From: Antedon mediterranea
Taxonomy: Eukaryota; Echinodermata; Crinoidea; Comatulida; Antedonidae
NCBI RefSeq assembly: GCF_964355755.1
Contig: NC_092673.1
Coordinates: 15,691,001-15,755,000 of the forward strand
Length of the DNA stretch: 64,000 nt
Direction of reading: 5' to 3'
Part shown: piece after piece, positions 2,044 through 20,776 of the stretch
Layout of the letters: each line of letters begins with the position of its first letter
How positions within the stretch are numbered: position 1 is the first letter of the stretch
The notes under the pieces: generated by a model
Database searches by the model: none
Told to the model about the DNA's origin: nothing
Seen by the model: the letters and a program-made list of their open reading frames with translations, nothing else
Made by a program: the position numbers and the translations under genes

Positions 2044-5000
2044 GTAAGTCTCTCATAGTACTTTATACTTTTTTGTCATAATCGTAGACAATTTTACAGA
2101 TTAAAAATTAATAAATTCAACAAAAGGGTGCTGGAAGTCTAGTCTGGGATCCAGACGGAGTTTTTTCTTAATATTAGTAAAAATATAAATATTTTTGCAC
2201 ATATGGCGTTTCATACGTGTATTACTTGAGTTTGGATACTCCGTCTGGGGAAACACGCAAAAGTCACGTGGTTTGACACCAAGAATTCTTGGTGCATAGA
2301 TTATCCGGTTGACTAGTTTCAGCTGCATGCGATTGGCTACTCACTCGTACACTGTTTTAATATTCATGTTTCAGAATTTCAAAGACTCAACAACTAAGAA
2401 GGTACGCATGCGCTATGTTACGTTTAGACAATGTGTACTTGGGTACATTAATGAAAGTTTCTGAAGGCTAGAAATGATTTTATAACATTTGATGGGATTT
2501 TTCCCAAGAAAACTCGTCTTGCTTCTCCGCAAATCAAACATTGAATGGATCATTTAATATTACGCGGAGATAATTTGATTTAATTCCCACCCAGACCCTG
2601 TCCTGTTCTGTGTAGTGGTGTACAACTCCCTGGACTGGTGTAGCCCTGTCTGTTGTGTGTGAATCCTGTTGTGTGCCGGTGGTGGTATGTAGGCCTACCT
2701 TATTGGTGTTTTATTTGGCAGGTCATACGTGCGAGTTGAGTAGGACCTACGAAGGAGGCCTAGGCTAAGGACTAAACAATTTATAAACAAAACAACTTGG
2801 CAACACGATTTCATATTTCAACAGTCTCGATCGTACATTCAGCACTGTACGTACTCGATCTTTTTCATTTTGAAACAAAATGATCATTGGTTGATTTGAA
2901 ATCCATATTTACATACCGCCCGCCCCATATAGCCAAATGCGGTATGATAACCTACGTCATTCTTATTGGATGTTTGCGGTCTGCAAATCGATTTCTATAC
3001 GTGTTTCACAAGTCTGTATTTTCAGACAAAAATCGCGGTCGAAATAAAAACAAATAAATAAAAATAAAAAACAATACAGACTTGGAGCAAGTCTACTGGA
3101 AGTCATGCACCCGGAGGTATATATTATGACAAACTACAAGGCACTTAAAATACAACACTCAAGCTGCTACAATTTCACGATAATCACTTGCCTTATCATT
3201 TACAGTATTTCCTTGATTCGTATTACAAATCCAAAGGCAACTCACTAAAACAATGACAATGCTCTTGCTCTGTATACAAAAGCGTTAAATATTAATTCGA
3301 AATTTTGTTTTGAATACCACTTGATATTGTTTAGACAGATTTTATTACTTGCAATCTCCTTCCTGTACTGTGTAAATAGTTCTTGAAGGAAATTATACAG
3401 TAGGGAAATATTTAATGCACTTTGTATTGTTTATAGAGTAGTCCATGTGTTTTTTTAAACCACAACGTCATCGCAATGATTGCCATTATACAGTAAGGCC
3501 AGCCCTTCAGGCTTTAGTTGGGTAATTTGGTTTCATGGGAACAGGTATCACTTGATGAGTACTACCCAAATGTAAATATTTAAAGTCTAAACAGGCCCCT
3601 AGCAATTAAAAAATAATTACGGGCACAATACCATGTTAAGTTAATTACAGCAAATTTGGTATATTCTGTAAATCTTTTCCTTGAGGTATAAACACACATG
3701 ATTCACACATACTGTATCCTTAATGAAAACGCAATGTGTAGTTCAGTTTACTGGCCACCCACTGGTTTTAGCCCACCTTTTACTCCTTTCACTGTGCCTA
3801 GCAAACGATGCGAATGGTGTATTTAGTGACATTTTCATGCAAAGTGATCATGTGCTTTTATTGGCCTACCAGTTAAGAACTGTAATTTTGATCATGTTAT
3901 CACATTATAAATGTTATTATTTTGTTCGTAGGTGCTGAGGAATTGCTTAGCATAGATATTGATTTTAGTGGATTTTTATATAAAAGATCATCTGAACGAA
4001 AAACAGATAAAATAACATCAGTCATACAAAGCAAGTTAAGTTTCCCGTTTGCAAAATGGCAACTACGATATGTGATACTTTACAAGGATTGGTTGTATTA
4101 CTTCCAATCAGAGAAAAGCAAACGACCGAAAGGAGCGTTCTGTCTCAAAGGTTATCATAGGTATGAATCATATTTTTTCTAATCAGACTCTTTAGCGATA
4201 ATCAATATGTTGTAATCAATATTCAATCATTACATTTTCTTTCATAAGAACCATAATTTATAAATTTATCTTCTTTAATTTTTGATAATCATTTATCTTT
4301 TTGGGTATTAAAGGCATCAAAACTTAAAACGTGATTGATGGCTATATCACTATACAGCGTTATTGTCTGCCAACACTAATTCGGAAATGTTGGTTCCTTG
4401 TTGTGCGAAAAAGTCATAATTGTTTTTTAGAATATGACTATTGATAACAAATTACCTGTACCACCAACTATCAATCTTATAATATTTGTGATATTTCAGA
4501 GTGATGAGGGCTGAAGAGGCATCTACAACCGATCAACGTTATGCATTCAAAATAATGGGCCCATCCCATAATATGAGGACATACTTCTTTGGAGCAGCAT
4601 CAGAACGGGAAATGACGGTAGGTTCTCATGTTTTGTACCCAACATTCAACCCGGAAGTAGGGTTAATTTTGATTTGAAAGAACGAATATAGCAATTAAGG
4701 GCATACTGTACACTTTGTATAGCATAATAAAGAATACACAGATTCTCAATTTGTTTTTTTTTCCTCTAAGGTAAACAATATTATTAATAAAGATTATTGT
4801 TAAGACTGTAACCTAAACTATCTATTTTTAGCTTTTTTAATTATATTGTAAAAAAAATCAATGGTGTCTGCATTATACAGATCACCATCAGAGAATACTG
4901 CTGACGTACAGTGCTTATTTGTACCATGAACAGCAAAACAGGTACAATAATAGTGTATTGTCAATTATTTTCATTGTCATATTGTGACAACTGATGACAT

Positions 5001-8000
5001 ACTTTAGCTAATTCTGTACTGTATTGTCCATCCAATTCCTTATCTCTTCATTTGATGTAGTCATCCATCCATATCAATGCCCTCTGTATGTTTTGTTTAG
5101 TACGCTCTTCTATTTTAAAAATTGTATTCAACAAAATACACTCTCACAGTGTATTGGCTATTATATAACAGGAACAACATACCATGTGTATCGTCACCCC
5201 CCCCCCCCCCTCCATGTGAGAGAGAATTGTTTTGACATTAAGCAAAAGTCTGTACCACAAATAGCTAATATTAATACACTCAACAAACCTATACTGTATA
5301 CGTTTTCTCCGTTTATTTTTACTAGTAATAATCATGGTAAGTCTTGGATACACTACACTATGACTATAAAATTAAAAATACAAATTCTATTCTTATTAGT
5401 TATGGATGGCACACATCAGGGTTACTATGGAGAAGGCATTACACGGCAGTGCCAGAGACAGGTATGTAAGAATTGTGTACTATATGTGGGACTCCCACAC
5501 TGAACACATTTATAGATGTCTTTTGGGTGGTGAGCAACATAGATGGATGTAATTGCACTCAACGGAGAACCCACTATCAAAGTCTTCCACCCACCTTAAA
5601 GCTTATGTTAAAGACTCCTTCCCTACGTTTTTTAGATCTAATTTAAGATCACAAACTATATTTAATGTAAAAATAATACTATATGGTCCTATTGCGATAA
5701 CTTTTTTCGTCATTAAACGGTTAAAAATGTGAAAAATAAGTTGATTCTAATAATTATAGCGGCCCGCTATAAATCTAAAAATGCATTGCGTGCGGATTTA
5801 TATTTTTGTTTTTCTTCTGTAATTCACCCACTTTTCGATTGATCGTGAGGCCAAAACCAATGGAAGACTCCTAACTTTTCAGTGAAAATACCGGGTTTTC
5901 CCCAATCTGAGTCTGGCAAAAATAGAAAGACAATTAATGCAGCAACTATACAACTTCAGACTAGGTATATAGCTAGCGTTTGATGTTCGTACGTTACCGA
6001 TGTTTACCAGCTAGGCTTACAAAACTAAGCCTACAGTAGCTAGGCTAGGCCTGAAGACCGTCCACGAGAGGTCATTCGCCGCGAGCTACTGAGGTAGTGC
6101 ATTGTTTCTCACTTTTTATCATAATTTACAATAAAACGTACATTTAAGACAAGGAATGACCTGGTTTAATGTTTTTAAAGTAATATGTATTATTTTACAA
6201 AACGTCACAAATTGTAGGGAAGGGGTCTTTAAGGTCTCACCCAACATACCAACCAACCAAAGAAACCTCTGGATAACTAAAAGTACTGTTTTATCGCTTC
6301 CCACCAACCAATAACCTTTTTACACCCCACTCCTACACTTTAGCTACATATAATCTTTTACCCATTATTTGCAACCCAACCCGATGGATAAATATGAAAT
6401 CAAAAATGTTGAGAAGTAAATTTAATATAAAAACAAGAATAAAGAGATAAATGAATTGAAGTTAATTACTTTAAAAGCATTTAAAATTGTGCATTTTTAT
6501 TCTACACTTTATGATATAGATCATTACAGCTTCTAAAAAATTTAAAAGAAAAGAGCGACCGTGTATTCTCCCAAGTGTGTGAGCTAGATGAACAAAACAA
6601 TTTCCGAAGGGATTCAGTTAACAGTAGTGACAGTCAAAATGAACAAATTTATGATGAAATTGAGAAACAATTGCCTTTATATGACGATACAGAATGCCTG
6701 CCAGATATTGGTGAAAGACCGTTACCGAGGCCGCCAGCAGAATGGAGTCCTGACTCGGGTAATTCCAAACCAGGTATGTGTTTACAGATCACTATTGAGT
6801 TATGTTCATTCTCATATAAACTGTTATGTTAATATACCTGTTGTGTTATAAAGATAGGAATGAAAAGAGTAGTTTACCGAGAAATACCGAGGTGGTTTGG
6901 AGGATTTACAAAAGTGGTTGAAACAGTGTACCAAGGTGCTTGGGAGGGTGTACCAAGGTGGTTGTGAGGGTATTACAGAGGTGGTTGGGACAGTGTACCA
7001 AGGTGCTTGGGAGGGTGTACCAAGGTGGTTGTGAGGGTATTACAGAGGTGGTTGGGACAGTGTACCAAGGTGGTTGGGAGGCTGTACCAAGATGATTGGG
7101 AGTGTGTACCAAGGTGTGGTTGGGTATACCAAGGTCACCCACCTTGCCAAGGTGGTTGGGCGGGTGTACCGAGGTGGTTGGGAGGATATACCAAGCCCTC
7201 TTGTACATTAAATATTATTAAATTAGATAAACAATTCATGATGACAATGCAAAAATAAAATTCATATCCCAGAAAAGTGTGTGTGTGGGTGATTATGGCT
7301 TTTCCATTCATACTATAATTGTTTTGATAAACCCTTTATCTGTGACACTACAATGAATAATCAACCAGTGGTGGTGTTTCTGTGGTATTAAACATTTTGA
7401 AAATAAATGTCATTGTCTTGTTGTGCAATTTGAAAAAAAAAAAATTTGTCTAGTATTGTATTACAAACAACAAAGAAACTATTAATATTCTGTTATATAT
7501 ATATTTACCACAAATTTCCTCATACTTCAAAAACTCTAGCATTGTTAGGAAGTGTTTCAATTGAGCTACACCACACAAGTAGTTTATTGACATTTCGTTC
7601 AACAATACCATCAGTTTTTAAAATAATATACATAAATAAAATACTTTATTTAATTTATTAGTGCTTTTATTTTTTCTTGAAATTATACCAAATTGAAGTA
7701 CAGTAAGTAATTTGTTTTATAAATAAAAAAATTGTTTAGTTGAAATGCATGTTTTGTTTTACCTACTGTATAAGCAAGTAAAGTAAGAAAACCACTACCG
7801 GCACCACCTCCCCGACATGATGGCTATGTAGTAAATAAAGGTAACAGTTTAACAACAAGTTTGCTCACAATTTCTAGATTCTGCTATAGATTCAGTAGGT
7901 AGTTGCTGTAGTATTGCCGTCTTTGTCATCTTGGCTTCATTTTAGTGTTTAGATTGTTTATCTTTGTTTTGTTTTTATGGCTACCTTTAACTCACTGCCG

Positions 8001-11000: not shown

Positions 11001-14000
11001 CACCACTGTTTAGCATTGCTTAGCCCTCACCATAAGAAAACTCCATGAATAGTTGCAATTTATCTTTCCCATAACAATTGGAAACTGTAGTTCGATTACT
11101 GCAAAACAGCTGCAGGACAGGAAAATGCCACTGCCTAGACAATGCCACTATGTAAAGAAGCAACAGTCTCTACTATAATATTAATAAATATGTTTCAATA
11201 TGCAATGTTAATTTGTTTACAATTATCTGTTCTTTTAGTACCAATAGCAAGCAAGAGATTTTCAGCTGAACTTAGATCTAAATTTGGGATGAGATTTTCA
11301 AGTGAGTTTACAACCTACTGGGATTTATTTTTTTGCTAATTATTATTTTTTCTTTTTTACACGTGTCAATGTATGGGAAGAAAGGGCAGGAATGTGCATA
11401 TTTGTACCTAAGTTTGATTGGAGGATTGGAGATTACATTAGTTTTTGTAAATAATATGTCAGATGTTTGGTTATTACTGTGCATTTCTAACAGACTTGTT
11501 GCATGCTCAGTTGTGCCAGTTTACATGTACTTTCATAGTTATATAAAACAAAGGATGAATATTTTTTGTTAAAAGATGAAATCATTGATTCATAAAAATA
11601 TTCATTGCACTCAGTTCTCAGTATATGATTGTATATAATATAATGAATATTGCATTTATTTATGCATGATTTAAATCATAAAAACATTTTTATATGTCAA
11701 TGTCATGAATCACTACTGTTTTAAATTAAACTTTGATCTCTTTGCGCTTTGCTATATAAAGATTTTGAATTGTTGTAGAGTGGCCTGGTTGGTTGACCAA
11801 TTCCAGGTTTTATTCCATCCTATTTGGACAGAATGTCAACATAGGCACAACGCAAATGAGTTAACCAATCACAAGCGACAGTTCGGATGATCCATCCTAT
11901 CGTGATTAGTCAAATTACTTGTGTCGAATCCAAGTGAGAACAAAGTTTTAACCTCATTAGGTACTTGGTTTAAAAAGCATGGGTTTCCCATCTTGTTATT
12001 GTCGAATCATGTATTTGCTGCTGCATGGTGTGAGTAAAGATAACCTTTTTATTACTTTGTATACTTTAGCACTTGACAGTGATGATGATGATGAGGATGA
12101 AAATGGGTGTGTCCAGGATTATTTATCACCTACAACTGCTACTTGCCCTCAAAGGGTTAGTCTAACAACAGCACCTAAGCCTCAACCTAGACCTCCAAGA
12201 CGAAAATGTGATGAGGAACCAAAAAATAAGTTTACAAACCCTCATGGTCTTCGGTAAGTATCTTATATATAAGAATATACAGTACTATACTCCCTCCCCT
12301 CTCTATCTCTCTCTCTACTTAAATTCACTCACTGTATACCATAATAATTGTTAGTAGTGCAAAGCTTTGCACACTGAGTGAGTGTGGCCGAGCGGTTATG
12401 ACAGTGCAGGCCCGTAGCCAGTGGTTTTGGGGGGTTCGGGTGAACCCCTCTTTTACCAGCGAACCCCTCCTTGAAAAACAAAGGCCCCACTTCCAAAATT
12501 GTGCAATTAATTATCAATTATGGAATACCGTAGTGTACTGTCTCTGCATAACTCAGATTTTAGTAGGTACAAAATGTCTCTTTAAGCTGATTAAAACAAC
12601 CGAAATTGCTCTGAGAGCCAAAAGATTCCAGGGGCCTTCGGCCTCTGGAGCCCAACCGGGGGCCCTTGGCCCCCCAGCCTACAGTTACTCGCTGCGCTCG
12701 CAAAATAATTGGTGTCAAGAAAACCCCCCTCTGATGCATTCTGGCTACGGACCTGCAGTGCAACCGTAATCCATAACCATAACATCGGTAAGCGTTTGAG
12801 GCTCACTCGCATCATGCTTCTGGTGGTAGAACAAATCTTCTTGGATAAGGACTATAAACGTAGGTCCAGTGTGCACAAAATGTTTGTGTGCACTTTAATG
12901 AACTAGTACATCTTTTGAGATGAGTAGGGGGTTACCCCGGTGTAATAGCACACACATCCATTATGTGAAAAAAAATGTGGTATACCCATATATGGACACA
13001 ATGACATTATTACTACCATACAGTATGTGGGCACATTACACTTTTTTTTAATAATTTGATAGTGTAGACAGAGCAAAAAAGAAAAAAAAAATTTAATATA
13101 AGTAATCATTTTATAAATTTTTTTATGTGAGTTTATTACAAAAAAATTTCTACAATTTTATTTTTGTTAAGGCGAAGACCAGATGGAAACAGTTTTCGGG
13201 ACAAACATAGTGAAACGGTAATTGCACTTTAGTTTGTCTATTTATATGATTTTCCTTTCTCTTATTTTAACGTATAGCACATCCTCCCAACATACAAAAT
13301 ATGTAAGCAATACAGTAAACTATTCCAAAACTCAGATCCATCTAAAGTTAGTAGCGTTCTATGAAACATATATTGCTTTGTTTGCTATAGAGTGTGCAAA
13401 ACAGCTTAAATGGCTTATTGGTTGAAGACATGAGTGATTTATTTTTGTGAATTGGCTATAAATGAATACAAAAATGACATTTTTGTCTTTTAGCATATTG
13501 GTAAGAAACCCCCAGCTCCGCCGAAGAAACCTCAGATTTCACCAAAACCAAACATGACCAAACCAAGTTCAACATACAATAAGGTAAAAGACTAGACAAG
13601 TCAGATAATAAATTACTATTTGTTGTAATTATTAAATATTTTATGTTATAAAAGTGGAGCGTAGCTTGGTGGTTAACATGCTTGCCTTTCAATTCTAAGC
13701 CCGGTACAATCCTGACCTAGAGCAAGGGTTGTAACTCTTTCAACTCCACTCAAATGAGACTTGGTTTATAAGCATGATAAATTATTAAATAGTCAGGGGC
13801 GGATCTAGGATTTTGATAAAGAAGGGGTCGATATGGAAAAAATAATTGTCTATTTTTTTTCTAGACTCCCAGAGAGAGCATCTGAGGCGTTTTGGCCAGT
13901 CGATTCTTGTCATATAATTATCTGAATATACTGGGTTTTATAGACCATATTTTAAAATATATTAAAATATACAGAACTGTTTTTTTTTGCGCCTAAAGCC

Positions 14001-17000
14001 TTTTTTCCCGTCGCAAATTTTTACACATTTTGTACGCGATCGTTAATGGTTTCTTGGTTCTTTCGACGTTGCTGGGACACATGGACGTGAAGTTTTGCAA
14101 AGCCAAGGCCGGTCACGCGCGCAACCGGGCCCGTGTGAAAATTGAAAAAGTTACGGGTTTTGATGCTTCAACCCAGCCGGCCTAGGACATGTTTTCGCTG
14201 ATATTGTTACACTAAAGACAGACATTAAATTATATTGTTTTTATATTAAAATTTAGTTTTACTTACACTTGTTATTTTGAAATATCAGACTTTAAAACAT
14301 CATCGCGTTGTAAAAAATCATTGTCAGCGCGTCCGTATTTTTTCACAAACAATGATGACGTAATTTATGAACTATATGATTGGTCAGTCGGTTCTACCGA
14401 TCGTAACGTTAAAGTTTAACTTGGTTCAACTTTGAAAAAAAATTGAAGATTTTAAAGATTTTTAATGTTAATTTGTACTCCCTTTTCCTGTAAAATCGTA
14501 TGTAAATGGGTGCATAATATATATATATACAGTATATATATATATATATTACAAAAGGGGGAAACGGGGCTGCTGCTCGCTGTTAGATGCATATAAAATA
14601 AAAATATATTGAGTTGTATATCTAGAGGGGGTATTTATTTGATTATACATGTTACCATTATACACCCAAATAAAAACAAGAAATGCCTTAACACCCCCCC
14701 CCCCCCCCCCTAAACCCTTCAGAACATAAAATGCCCCAGGGAGTTAATTTGTAAAAATCAATACGGTAAATGGAAGTAAAATGAAATATTGCATTACTTA
14801 TTTACTTTTACATAAATTATTGTGGTTAGGTCTTGATTCACTGATCCCATTACTAATTGTACATTTCCACTGCAGGTTGGAGCCATTAGGGATATATTAC
14901 CAGATTCTGCAATATTTGAGGAAAGTGACAAGGTGAAAGCAGAAGAGTAAGTCATGTTTTAATTTTCCTGTTATTGTCCTGTCAATAATGATCAGGATGG
15001 ATGGACCAACCTCATTAAATATTGTTAAAATAAAAAACAAAAATTTAAAAATTCCAATGATTATATTGATTATGCATTATATCTGCATCACAAATTATCT
15101 GGCACTGAACCACCTTGTTCCTTTTGATATTCAAACACTGTAGTCTATTTCGAAAAGAAGCCTCTATCTTGAAAAGAAGCCCAGTAGGCTTGAATTTGGG
15201 ATGGGCTTTTTTTCAAGATTACTTTTGCAGACCAAAGAGGGGGTTCTCACCCAGATGGTCTTGCTTTCGAGGTTTTACGGTATTTTTGTTCAATATTGAG
15301 TATACTGTAGGCTACTCTAGCAGAGCGAGTACTATAACAGAATTACTGAATCTTTATGTCCGATTTTTTCAGAATGCTAAAAGGTCCGAAGTTTGAGGGA
15401 ATGTACTTGATAAGAAATAGTGCACAGGCAGGTCAAAAGGTATCATTTTATTTCCTCTTTAATTTGATTAAAATATAATTGTATAGCTTGTGACTCGCAG
15501 TCCCCAAAGAGTCCCTTCTGTCGAATAACAATTATTTTTCTGTCAGGAAACGAAGGGGAAACTTTTCTGAAAGATGAACTGGGTTTTAATTAATTTATTT
15601 GATTCAAATTTTTAGAAACACACTGTATACTATAAAACTGACTATAGGTATATATATCTTATTCTTCACTCCATGTATATATTGATGCTTTTGTTGTATC
15701 CAGTAGGGTGTTAATTGTTGCTTAAGCACCAACTCCTCTCTCATCTTTTATGTAAATAAACCTCTCTGCATCAGGCATCTCCAAATACTTATTTAATTAA
15801 AATTTAAATATCACATTTCTTTTTTCTTTTAAGGTTCTTATGGTCTACCATGGAAACGATAAATGCAAACATTATAAAATATTTGGAGATGGAGTAAGTT
15901 TTGTACAAAGTTATTTAACAAAGTGTTTGGTAGTCTGGTTAAAGAATTGGTGTAAGGTGGTAGTTAATTCCGGATTGCTTATCTTTATCACTGCTAAATG
16001 TAAACCAAATATTCTGTAACAAAAGTAAACAGCAACTTTTTTTGGATAACGATGATAACTAACTCTTCATTTAGGGTCAATCCAAATTGAATCATGTGTA
16101 CTTTAATTTATGTTAACAAATAAAATCAGTTTTTCAGTGTGTATGGTTTAAATATTAACACATTCTACAAACAGTAGAGAATCGTAATTATGGCTTTGTG
16201 GTGTATGTGGCTTCCATTCACTAGACTTTCCCTATCATGCTATTTTCCCATTTCATCTTGCATATCACTTCTGTAGATTACCAACTTCTCTTTGGACAAG
16301 ACACCAGTATTTAAATTCATGAACGATCTATTAGAACATTATTCATCTTCTGGTTTGCCAAACACAGCTCGTGTGCTAACTAAACCCTATCATGATTGAT
16401 GATGCTACTGCCCTCAATGTTTGGTTACTAGGGTAGGTTTTGCTTGCAGTTTCTATGCAACAATGGTTGATGTTTTATACTTATTAATATTTATCTTTCA
16501 TTGTTATTTTCAAGTTTTATTTAAAGATGTATTGTCCCCCAAAAACATGAAAAATGAAGATTAATTAAATCAGACTTTGAATATGTTATTTTGTAGTTTT
16601 AATAAAGTTAATCACCTCCATAGAAAAAAAATAAAAAAACAATGTTTTCACTTTAAAATGAAAAATAAATGGTTAAATTAAAATCCATTGGCTGGCAGCC
16701 AATTTGACAATTTTTTGCTTTAAATTACATTTTTTTCAGATAAATACTTTTTTTTTCTGATACAATTTTTGGTCAAAGTGGGATAACTATTATGTTACAT
16801 TAAAATTGAATATTCAACCAATTTATTTTAAAGATAAAATCGCCCTGAAAAAACTTTATTAATTTTTAAGTTGAAGGCAGAATTCATTTGGGCTTTAGCC
16901 TATTCTCATTCCTGGTTATTTTTTACATTGATGACCGAATAAATATTATTGTATGTCACTTTGACCAAAAATTGGATTAAAAAAAACAATTATTAAACTG

Positions 17001-17593
17001 AAAAAATGTATTTTAAAGCAAAACAAATTAGTCAAATCGGCTGCCAGCCAATCAGTTTAAACCATGTATTTTGTCTTTTTAAAATATAAATGATTATCTT
17101 TATTAAAAACTACAAAATGACCTGATTTTCTTAATCTTCATTTGGGGGACAATGCAAATACATTTTTTGTAATATTTAATGTATATAATATTTAATTACC
17201 TTTTTACTTATACATTTATTTACAAATTTCAGGAACCCTTTGAATGCCTATAACATAATAAACAACATTTATTTTCGCTGTCATACTAACATATTTTTTT
17301 AGTAGTAGTAGTACTAATAATTCTTTATTTATAGATTGCATTAATATTTGTTAACAGAACTAACATAATAATTGTTATGGTAACATAACATTTTAAAAAT
17401 ATAGTAATAATAATATTATTATTACCTACCATAATTGTAATGAATATTATTCTTATAATTGCAGTCATATTCTCTTGATGGGAAGTTAATGAAGTCTTCT
17501 ATGAAAGGCCTTCTTCAACACTTTATAACTCATTATTTACCTCCATCAGAGGGCATTAAATTGACAAGACCATTCCCTGGACCAACAAAATAA
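2007..17593 (+). CDS. SH3BP2: SH3 domain-binding protein 2 (3BP2) adaptor
   Basis: Cytoplasmic adaptor that in vertebrates links Syk/Src-type kinases, Vav, PLC-gamma and tankyrase in immune and bone cells. Coding exons, phases all consistent: 2007-2043, 3932-4160, 4500-4617, 5400-5461, 6520-6773, 7784-7840, 10337-10480, 11239-11301, 12070-12253, 13172-13217, 13494-13583, 14876-14946, 15373-15439, 15834-15893, then 16277-16399 or 17465-17593. Predicted 534 or 536 aa (human about 561). PH domain is roughly residues 20-145, with KWQLRYVILYKDWLYYF and the terminal helix tryptophan LWMAHI. The proline-rich middle holds RPLPRPP and KPLPAPPPR, likely SH3 ligands. The acidic exon at 12070 carries SDDDDEDE. 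SH2 starts near residue 453 with GMYLIRNS, whose Arg (about 466) is the phosphotyrosine contact. Identity is confident from domain order and the exon-10 motif RPDGNSFR; the first exon is tentative. Confidence 0.9.
6890..7195 (+). repeat. GT-rich minisatellite, ~22 bp units, in an SH3BP2 intron
   Basis: Repeats of the type GTGTACCAAGGTGGTTGGGAGG fill about 300 bp. Near 6927-7060 three variant units (22+22+23 bp) form a 67 bp higher-order block that occurs twice in a row; outer units are more diverged. Open frames here on both strands come from the repeat and are not genes. Confidence 0.85.
8185..8369. mobile_element. Tigger/pogo-like MITE
   Basis: A 185 bp element beginning CAGTCAACTCTCCCAATACC and ending with the reverse complement, flanked by TA on both sides (TA target duplication). 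The terminal words resemble Tigger/pogo ends. The interior repeats the word ATACCAGACTTT and has no coding capacity. Confidence 0.75.
8486..8619. mobile_element. Harbinger-like MITE, copy A
   Basis: Palindromic element with ends AGCTCTGTCTACACTATCAAA and its inverse, 134 bp, flanked by TAA on both sides. The 3 bp TWA target duplication is typical of PIF/Harbinger. The internal words GCCCAAATATGGTAGT and ATATGGGCACATCA recur in seven other copies in the window. Confidence 0.8.
9303..9659. mobile_element. TTTAAAGATGTATTGTCCCC-family MITE, complete copy
   Basis: About 357 bp with inverted ends TTAAAGATGTATTGTCCCCC and GGGGGACAATACATCTTTAA. The inside carries a run including GGCTGCCAGCCAAT and AGTCTGATTTAATTAATC shared with copies at about 8930-9277, 16520-16850, 16855-17155, 28596-28879, 56868-57030 and 63526-63715. 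Non-coding. Confidence 0.7.
9751..10233. mobile_element. 483 bp non-coding transposon with ~50 bp inverted ends
   Basis: It begins GGAGGTTTCGCAACCTTACG and ends with the near-exact inverse; the ends match over about 50 bp with two or three mismatches and include CGGATACGTCAC. The centre is unrelated AT-rich sequence with no frame. Superfamily not assigned. Confidence 0.75.
10863..11010. mobile_element. Possible hAT-like MITE
   Basis: The left end CAGTGGCGTAACAACTA and right end CTTACACCACTG are imperfect inverted repeats starting CAG and ending CTG. Interior about 120 bp, GC-richer than its surroundings. No target duplication established. Confidence 0.4.
12380..12900 (+). mobile_element. tRNA-derived SINE split by a later insertion
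   Basis: The left part contains TGTGGCCGAGCGGTTATGA, a good A box of tRNA-Ser/Leu type. About 395 bp further on is GTTTGAGGC, a passable B box, followed by a typical SINE body with GGACTATAAACGTAGGTCC. Removing the element at 12407-12755 brings the two boxes to roughly normal spacing. Confidence 0.6.
12407..12755. mobile_element. Inverted-repeat element nested in the SINE
   Basis: A 349 bp element starting CAGGCCCGTAGCCAG and ending CTGGCTACGGACCTG, flanked on both sides by CAGTG. Its interior contains a GC-rich run GGCCTTCGGCCTC..GGGGGCCCTTGGCCCCC. A related right end, GCTGGCTACGGGCCTG, occurs at about 41495-41511. Open frames inside are not genes. Confidence 0.7.
12940..13074. mobile_element. 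Harbinger-like MITE, copy B, left end decayed
   Basis: The right half is well kept (TATGTGGGCACATTACA, TTTGATAGTGTAGACAGAGC). The left inverted end is almost unrecognisable. Confidence 0.6.
13656..13790 (+). mobile_element. tRNA-derived SINE head
   Basis: GTAGCTTGGTGGTTAACATG matches a tRNA A box and is followed about 40 bp later by a B-box-like CCGGTACAATCCTG. An AT-rich tail ends near 13790. It lies in the SH3BP2 intron between 13584 and 14875. Confidence 0.5.
14517..14549. repeat. TA microsatellite
   Basis: An alternating TA tract interrupted once by CAG. Intronic, no other signal. Confidence 0.9.
14694..14710. repeat. Poly-C tract of 17 bases
   Basis: An uninterrupted run of C in an SH3BP2 intron; a shorter C run occurs at about 5200-5211. 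Run length may be uncertain. Confidence 0.9.
16277..16399 (+). CDS. SH3BP2: SH3BP2 alternative terminal exon A (distal SH2)
   Basis: A CTGTAG acceptor in phase 0 is followed by 40 codons and TGA. It begins ITNFSLDKTP, contains DLLEHY and ends KPYHD. This is the second half of the SH2 domain (strand D to the C-terminus) and joins the exon ending 15893 in frame. The LEHY motif is closer than exon B to the VEHY of vertebrate 3BP2. Its stop means it cannot simply be included upstream of exon B in one coding chain, so it must be an alternative last coding exon. A poly(A) site of its own is not obvious: the nearest AATAAA words lie inside MITE copies at about 16664 and 16938. Confidence 0.8.
   Translation: MTNFSLDKTPVFKFMNDLLEHYSSSGLPNTARVLTKPYHD
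16520..17155. mobile_element. Two adjacent TTTAAAGATG-family MITE copies
   Basis: One copy begins TTAAAGATGTATTGTCCCCC at 16521; a second, with its own GCTGCCAGCCAAT core, ends GGGGGACAATGC near 17155. They fill most of the intron between the two alternative SH2 exons. Their inner borders (about 16850) are eroded. Confidence 0.65.
17465..17593 (+). CDS. SH3BP2: SH3BP2 alternative terminal exon B (distal SH2)
   Basis: A TTGCAG acceptor in phase 0, 42 codons, then TAA. It begins SYSLDGKLMK, contains GLLQHFITHYLP and ends PFPGPTK. It aligns without gaps to exon A from SLD through LP, with 9 of 25 residues identical, so both are copies of one ancestral exon. Either gives a complete SH2 domain when joined to 15834-15893. 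Confidence 0.85.
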   Translation, partial: SYSLDGKLMKSSMKGLLQHFITHYLPPSEGIKLTRPFPGPTK

Positions 17594-19975
17594 CAAAACA
17601 TGATTGACATCAGAGGAGCTGCATTTTATTACGACATCATTGATATTGTGTAGCCTAGATCCTAGACACTAATTCTTTATGGCACACATGCCGTGTCATA
17701 ACTTTAATAGAAGTAACCATAGTTTCACAAGTTCAGTTGGTGCAGTTAATAGTGTTTGGATTTCTTGATTGTAAGGTTTAAATCCTTATAAGGAAAACAG
17801 GACAGGAAATGCTTGATGTAACCTGTGGTGGAATTCATTGTACAAAAACCATAAGCTATGTGACTTTTGAAAAGAAAACATTCTCCATTGCTATGATACG
17901 CTACGAAAATGAAGATGCACTCCATCACTATGAGATGTCAATTTACCTTGTTTTGTACAACCAACCATTTTAGAGTATATTTCAGCCGTTACAAGAACCC
18001 TTGAAATTGTTACCTTATTTTAAAAGTAAAAACGCTAAGTGTGTATATGTACTATATACATAATAATTACTACTGTACTTAAATTTGCGAGTCAACTTCA
18101 AGATTGGGAAGACAGAAATATAACATATATATTACAATTTATTTTTACATATTGTTGCTGTTGTGAATTTCTAAAAACTAATACAAATATGTAACAGAAG
18201 CAAATTTATAAAGATTTTGCTATGGTTTTCAGCAAGACAGACACCTACTGTATATACATCTGAATCGTGTTCGTTAATAATCACACAAAAAGTTATATCC
18301 CTTGACCAACAGCTAAATGCTTTATCCAGTGGACAAGACTATGGGAGTAACACATTTTTTGTAACTATTGTAGCAATATTCTCTTTATGCCACATGATAA
18401 TCAAATTTGCATAAATACTATGAAGAAATCTTGCATTTTGACTTCAGACTGAACCAGTTGATCTTCCAACCACATACACATGTGTTAGCGTTGACCGCCT
18501 TTGTTGGGTTACACAATTATATTTCAAATCATTTTGTTTTTACTAATTTTTAATAATACACATTATTTGTAAATATTCTGTACTGTATATTTCTAAATAG
18601 TTTGTTTCTGCTAATTTGCAATTTGATATTCAAAATTTCCAATTCTATCTCGTCAGGTGTTTTGTAACTTGAATTTAATGATGGTTCTTGTGGAACAAGC
18701 AACTTTTAAGTCGATTAAAACTATACTAATTAACCAAGAAATTTAACAGATTGCATTTTAAAGATACATATTGGTTTCTAACAGTGGACTTTGTAAATAA
18801 ATATATGGAAGATACTATTTGATAACATTCAATGTAAAGCAATATATACTGCACGAAACTGGTGAAAATTCAGACAACATTGGAGTGTTGATAATTCTGT
18901 TAGGATTTTAATTATATAGGTCTAAAAATGTTTTATAAACAAGTGGAATTGATGCACCCGATTTTCTTTACTGTATCTCCACATATGTAATTTTATGTGC
19001 AGTATCATAGGTACATTCTATAATACAGTGTCACATATGTATCACATGTGACACCTGAATGGTAAATGCTTTACTTACGGCGTCACATGTGATACTGTAT
19101 GACCATGTATTATACAATTTGCGTATGATACTGGACAAATTAAAGATACAGTACCGAGAATTGTCTAGCTGATGACACAAAATACAATCTTAAAATAAAA
19201 TTTTAATAAAATGTTAAGTTGAAACCAAAACATAAAAAAGTTATATCGAAAGGGGAGATATAGAGATAACTAACAAACAAAATAATATCATGTGCAATAA
19301 ATAATAAATACTTTTTTAATGGTACTTTATTTCGCTAAATATGCTGTGAACTTTACTCGAAATTATACATAATGTAAGATGTTTTCGATTTTTTTTTACA
19401 TGGGCCTTTCAATGATTTGTTCAAAGTTGCTTTTAACAAATATATTAAAGGTTTGCTATATCGGTGGTAAGTCTTTCTTTATAATAATAATTTATTTAAA
19501 AAACTACACTTTTTGAAACAGCGGGACGTGTTCAGTGTAATTAAAGTAAAAGTATACATTTCGCCTTTTTTTTCCATTTACATTTTTATTTGATTTCCCT
19601 TTCTTGGGTCTTCGATACAACGCAAGTGAATTGACCAATTAAAGCGTCGCGAATGGTCAAATTGCGTTTGCGTCCAAACCTGTCCCGTTTTTCAACGAAA
19701 CGAACGATGTTGTAGTTTTGTTAAATAATGTAAAAGTGTTATAAACATTCACACAAGAAGTCCGTAAAGAACTTTATTGCATATATCGTGTTGTGAATTA
19801 TACGTAAATATGCCGTCTTACATAAATGTCTGCACGTAGTTATATTGCCATGTATAATTATATATAAATATATATGTGTGTGTATAGTATATATATAATG
19901 TTCAATGTCTGAAACGTGTTGTACATTTGAGCCGAGTTACAATTGTAATAAAAATTCAATTTGAAAGTATGTGTG
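17594..19975 (+). other. SH3BP2: Probable SH3BP2 3' untranslated region
   Basis: About 2.4 kb with no coding exon follows the exon B stop. AATAAA signals are at 18796-18801, 19296-19301 and 19947-19952; the last is followed by a GT-rich stretch (TATGTGTGC), a good cleavage context. An imperfect palindrome with GTATCACATGTGACAC lies at about 19037-19098. Confidence 0.5.
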
Positions 19976-20088: not shown

Positions 20089-20434
20089 AAAGCGTGGTTC
20101 CCACTAGAGACGCAACGCAAGGACGTAAGCGCAACGCAATCGAGTTGACCAATGACAAGCCACTGTTCGAATAATCCATCGCTTGTGATTGGTCAAATCA
20201 CTTACGTTGCGTTACGTTCTTGCGTTGCGTCGCTAGTGGGAACCAAGCTTAAAGCGTGGTTCCCACTAGAACGTAACGCAAGGACGTAAACGCAACGCAA
20301 GCGTTTTAACCAATGACAAGCGAAGTTAAATAGACAGTTAGCAATTACAAGCGAATAAGCCATCGCTTGTGATTGGTCAAATCGTAACGTTGCGTTACGT
20401 TCTTGCGTTGCGTCGCTAGTGGGAACCAAGCTTA
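20089..20434. mobile_element. Tandem pair of CCAAT-box MITEs
   Basis: Two elements (20089-20250 and 20250-20434) share ends AAAGCGTGGTTCCCACTAG and CTAGTGGGAACCAAGCTT with ACGCAACGCAAG just inside. Each carries TTGACCAATGACAAGC and the inverse GTGATTGGTCAAAT, i.e. paired CCAAT boxes. Related, more diverged pieces lie at about 11800-11930, 19614-19680, 20497-20620, 24785-24870, 33930-34213, 45559-45662 and 63110-63190. Non-coding. Confidence 0.75.
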
Positions 20435-20776
20435 ACAGAAGGCTTGATAACGTAAAAATAAGTACAGTAAAATTCACTGATAATTACACAAGACGCAGAT
20501 ATAGACACTACGACGTGGACGCAACAACGCAAGTGAAATTCTTACCAATCACAAGCGACAGTTCGGGTGGTCCATCGCGCCGTGATTGGTCAAATTACTG
20601 GCGTGCTTGCTCTGCGTCCAAGAATGATTTTCACTTTTTAACTAATCATTTCGGTACTACTTCTTAAATGCTGTCTGAAAAAAAGACAAATCAGAATCGA
20701 AAGCTTTTAATAATGGTTACCCTGAAAATATTTAGCAATGATATAAAAAAGAATGTAAAAAGCGATCTAAAATAGA

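Follow-up and report, generated by a model that had tools for sequence, protein, structure and literature searches.

A tandem-duplicated distal SH2 exon in an SH3BP2-like gene of Antedon mediterranea may provide two alternative SH2 forms

Introduction

Can a gene supply an adaptor protein with two phosphopeptide preferences by exchanging only half of its SH2 domain? SH2 specificity normally changes through gene duplication. The question is raised by a locus of the crinoid Antedon mediterranea at which two neighbouring exons, here called A and B, both appear to encode the distal half of one SH2 domain. All positions given below, unless stated otherwise, are those of the window, i.e., the whole 64,000-nucleotide stretch of genomic DNA that was analysed. 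From its sequence, the reading that we favour, with a probability of about 0.65, is that the distal SH2 exon was duplicated in tandem and that neither copy has since lost its function, A or B being chosen by splicing as alternatives.

An SH3BP2-like gene with a C-terminal SH2 domain

The gene lies on the forward strand, covers ~3.9-19 kb of the window and encodes a PH domain, proline-rich stretches, the motif RRRPDGNS and an SH2 domain. Three exons with splice sites (3932-4160, 4500-4617 and ~5400-5461, the borders of the last being approximate) supply the PH domain, which is matched by Pfam (E 6.4e-17 for the spliced translation) and by PH-domain structures in the PDB. The proline-rich stretches are exemplified by KKPPAPPKKPQ at 13494-13583. 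The segment RRRPDGNSFR at 12252-13193 is interrupted by an intron, with its first Arg codon split and begun at 12252-12253, and RRRPDGNS is completed by an exon at 13172..13217, recognized from its sequence and splice sites. Passages of two papers give the tankyrase motif of human SH3BP2 as RSPPDGQS, where cherubism mutations fall (PMC9688111; PMC3359958). RRRPDGNS appears to be the counterpart of this motif, and the tankyrase-type pattern RxxPDG appears to have been kept.

Three exons on the forward strand encode the proximal half of the SH2 domain. The exon leading into the domain (14876..14946, VGAIRDILPDSAIFEESDKVKAEE) is bounded by splice sites and contains the start of the Pfam SH2 match of this half. 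It is followed by an exon at 15373..15439 (MYLIRNS), which lies within the same match and bears the phosphotyrosine-binding Arg, and by an exon at 15834..15893 (VLMVYHGNDKCKHYKIFGDG), which ends at a phase-0 donor (15893/15894, GGA/gtaagt). The FLVR-type Arg in beta-B (YLIRNS in 15373-15439) is common to the A and B forms, as the sequence-only reading had proposed for the entire upstream half. When the shared half is joined to exon B, the top match in the PDB is the SH2 domain of human 3BP2 (PDB identifier 2cr4) with an E-value of 1.6e-10. When it is joined to exon A, Grb2 comes first, SYK is also found and 3BP2 is matched at E 2.9e-7, a score to which the shared half contributes. Since the PH domain, the proline-rich stretches, RRRPDGNS and an SH2 domain with 3BP2 as the best match of its B form occur together, the gene is best read as the SH3BP2 orthologue of A. 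mediterranea, and these features bear out the identity that had been assigned to it earlier.

Two homologous exons encoding the distal SH2 half

The coding part of exon A (16277..16399, forward strand) follows the acceptor ...cttctgtag and consists of 40 codons and a TGA stop, with the translation ITNFSLDKTPVFKFMNDLLEHYSSSGLPNTARVLTKPYHD. The coding part of exon B (17465..17593, forward strand), which encodes a 3BP2-like distal half, follows the acceptor ...ataattgcag and consists of 42 codons and a TAA stop, with the translation SYSLDGKLMKSSMKGLLQHFITHYLPPSEGIKLTRPFPGPTK. Both acceptors score on par with the other acceptors of the gene. The main 3' UTR presumably follows the stop of exon B, the first AATAAA beyond which, at 18796..18801 on the forward strand, is a candidate poly(A) signal identified by pattern only. 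Two phase-0 exons, each with a good acceptor and a stop of its own, were thus described correctly in the sequence-only reading as to coordinates, phase and stops, and its ungapped alignment of the two from SLD to LP, with 9 identical residues in 25, was reproduced.

The homology of A and B over the distal SH2 half, which had also been claimed, was assessed by profile and pairwise comparisons. The shared half alone scores 30.5 bits (E 4e-7) against the Pfam SH2 family (PF00017), which already exceeds the curated cut-off of 21 bits, and the score is 38.9 bits with A and 33.9 bits with B. A home-made SH2 profile, built from the SH2 domains of the A. mediterranea genome together with Grb2 and 3BP2, gives 31.4 bits for the shared half, 46.0 with A and 35.8 with B. 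Exon A was equalled in this profile by none of the decoy tails (0/6,000 shuffled and 0/1,345 intronic, the latter drawn from the open frames of the window), whereas exon B was equalled by 78 of the 7,345; the case for B therefore rests on its match to 3BP2 (2cr4, E 1.6e-10). Both exons resemble the tail of the human 3BP2 SH2 domain beyond chance, with Z scores of 7.0 for A and 11.0 for B, neither of which was equalled in 5,000 shuffles. The score between A and B is 48, which was equalled by 0-1 of 5,000 shuffles, depending on the exon shuffled. These decoy counts and Z scores indicate that A is distinctive in generic SH2 features and B in 3BP2 features, and that each shares ancestry with the 3BP2 tail. 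Codon usage sets neither A nor B apart from background stop-free runs; it is uninformative as a test of coding because B, which is almost certainly coding, also fails it.

Each of the two exons is single-copy in the genome. Genome-wide searches found neither a close relative of exon A elsewhere, as a possible source, nor a retrocopy of the SH2 part. These results bear on the idea that A is not a duplicate of B but an exon shuffled into the locus from a different SH2 gene, in which case it may still be a working alternative. The pairwise scores of A, 49 against the SH2 gene L004, 48 against B and 46 against 3BP2, lend this idea some support. However, the best genome match of the A-form SH2 domain outside the gene has an E-value of only 0.24, A matches B in place and phase, and its alignment to 3BP2 needs just one gap, of one residue, close to the end of A. 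A local duplication is simpler, and we consider an origin by shuffling very improbable.

Age and origin of the duplication

Seven of the nine residues identical between A and B are encoded by different codons, and the two exons agree at 13/25 first, 13/25 second and 10/25 third codon positions. The different codons behind these seven identities indicate that the duplication is old and has been held to a protein-level pattern. In the alignment, the residues of 3BP2 that are retained differ between the copies, A having kept F and EHY, and B having kept G and the TH before LP, and such different subsets fit two descendants of one 3BP2 exon.

An old duplication might also have left exon A as a recently dead copy, i.e., one that was long a working alternative exon and is now unused. 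A repeat-family insertion lies 120 nt downstream of A, and in a simulation of neutral decay that started from A itself, 76% of the copies were still open after 0.1 substitutions per site, so that a loss of A within approximately the last 0.1 substitutions per site is compatible with its sequence. On the other hand, the frame of A is fully open, its acceptor and donor are good and its fit to the generic SH2 profile exceeds that of B; fewer than 3% of the simulated copies keep their SH2 fit after 0.2 substitutions per site, which is a rough bound given that the start was A. A recent death of exon A thus seems unlikely to us, and we continue with the reading in which both copies are in use.

Division of the SH2 domain by the exon boundary

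The shared exons supply the FLVR-type Arg (YLIRNS) and the D strand, and the phosphotyrosine pocket lies in the shared half. The exchanged exons supply the EF loop, alpha-B, the BG loop and beta-G, elements to which a review assigns the SH2 specificity pocket (PMC7530234). With the pocket in the shared half and the EF and BG loops in the swapped half, the exon boundary separates a phosphotyrosine half from a specificity half. A and B differ in each of the compared regions, whose borders were set by alignment and not by structure: the EF region reads DKTPVF in A and DGKLMK in B, the end of alpha-B reads EHY in A and QHF in B, and the BG region reads SSSGLPNTARV in A and ITHYLPPSEGIK in B. It is plausible from these differences that the two forms prefer different phosphopeptides. 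The F strand of an SH2 domain usually begins with Phe. In exon B this position is taken by Lys, and one of the two forms might therefore bind weakly.

Possible use of exon A in the mRNA

In the sequence-only reading, A and B were mutually exclusive terminal exons. The part of this claim that concerns homologous neighbours of the same phase with splice sites of their own stands; the terminal position of A is called into question by a donor and by the placement of the poly(A) signals. The donor (16432/16433, TAGG/gtaggt), 33 nt past the stop of A, would end a possible non-coding 3' part of the exon at 16400..16432 on the forward strand. When ranked with a matrix made from the gene's own donors, it is among the top 10 of the 3,605 GTs of the window and on par with the real donors of the gene, and only 0.011 donors as good are expected by chance in 70 nt.

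The interval from A to B contains a repeat (16520..17157) composed of a 310-bp MITE-like element followed by an older inverted copy, and all AATAAA/ATTAAA signals between the two exons, except the one at 17257, are inside it. The left 310 bp of the repeat are ~90% identical to many copies on large contigs, and the family is characterized by a length of ~310 bp and 20-nt terminal inverted repeats (consensus TTAAAGATGTATTGTCCCCC). We also note that the family has many copies at 88-91% identity, a first look having yielded ~4,000 candidates, and that the repeat at 16520-17157, in which the element is joined to the older inverted copy, is 71% self-complementary.

Because of the strong donor at 16432 and the confinement of nearly all poly(A) signals to the repeat, it is at least as likely that A is a cassette (16277-16432) spliced to B as that it ends the transcript at a poly(A) site of its own. 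The donor would let one transcript contain both exons, B being left untranslated, and as a stop-bearing cassette A would exclude B in translation but not necessarily in RNA.

Alternative exons with stops are often regulatory, and exon A carries a stop, which allows the view that its use mainly reduces the amount of the B form, or that it gives an ill-folded SH2 domain, in either case without a second specificity. Yet a stop less than 50-55 nt before a junction usually escapes nonsense-mediated decay, as known mainly from mammals, and the stop of A is 33 nt before the candidate junction, inside this zone. Being within 50 nt of the junction, it need not lead to mRNA decay. Moreover, a random stop-bearing exon would not be expected to resemble SH2 domains and 3BP2, and we regard a purely regulatory or ill-folded product of A as decidedly improbable.

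We therefore return to two working SH2 forms, for which the following scheme is proposed. The distal SH2 exon of SH3BP2 would have been duplicated in tandem long ago. The constant upstream exons would provide the phosphotyrosine pocket, and the lining of the specificity pocket, formed by the EF loop, alpha-B, the BG loop and beta-G, would come from either A or B. When A is included, the protein would end in A, and when A is skipped, it would end in B. In the first case, A would most likely be the cassette 16277-16432 with its own stop, spliced to B, and B would serve as 3' UTR; in the other possible form of the RNA, A would be a composite terminal exon polyadenylated at a site of its own. We infer that both exons are expressed, that both SH2 forms fold and that their choice of phosphopeptide differs. 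The most specific version, in which a constant pocket half is combined with a spliced specificity half by means of a stop-bearing cassette that relegates B to the 3' UTR, one gene thereby reaching two sets of phosphoproteins, is tentative, and we would put its chances somewhat short of even.

Comparison with known systems

Like the Antedon gene, vertebrate SH3BP2/3BP2 (human SH2 domain, PDB identifier 2cr4) combines a PH domain, proline-rich stretches, RxxPDG and a C-terminal SH2 domain, and exon B corresponds to its tail; the second, diverged distal-SH2 exon sets the Antedon gene apart. Splice variants of human SH3BP2 exist, their relevance being unknown, and the passages considered in the review that mentions them describe no second SH2 half (PMC3359958). 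For invertebrate SH3BP2, nothing relevant was found in the open-access literature.

Substitution of tandem duplicated exons at C-termini accounts for 77 of 236 human events (PMC9741552), tropomyosin is a further example, and clusters of terminal exons are known in flies, e.g., in Drosophila pip (PMC9013439). As in these systems, the Antedon exons are homologous, one of them would be chosen, and the resulting proteins would be the same except for one homologous region. In contrast to them, the cut lies inside an SH2 domain, between its phosphotyrosine and specificity halves, and A is possibly a cassette. Tandem duplicated, mutually exclusive exons are also found in an SH2-containing signalling protein, FYN, where they give FynT and FynB and adjoin the SH2 domain (PMC9741552), but the FYN exons cover the SH2-kinase linker and the start of the kinase and not the SH2 binding surface. 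No exchange of half an SH2 domain by exon choice was found described in the open-access literature, a scope that leaves out most subscription journals. Thus, while tandem duplicated C-terminal exons are already known, the half-SH2 swap looks new. If true, it would amount to a natural domain-swap experiment on the role of the EF and BG loops in binding, with the phosphotyrosine pocket held constant, and an adaptor linked to cherubism in human would use two sets of partners from one gene.

Other features of the window and genome

An intron of the gene contains a minisatellite-like tandem repeat (6870-7215), in which a translation of the type VYQGGWEGVPRWLG is repeated in all three frames. Downstream of the gene, at 20095-20435, two near-identical palindrome-like stretches stand side by side (gcgtggttcccactag...aacgcaaggacgtaa...cgcaacgcaa) and probably represent another mobile-element family. 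Elsewhere in the genome, the SH2 exon of L004 (G000:C5:19095059-19095292) and a further SH2 exon (G000:C5:19081956-19082153) lie on one strand, 13 kb apart, and together they perhaps belong to a Shark/HTK16-like kinase that carries a pair of SH2 domains.
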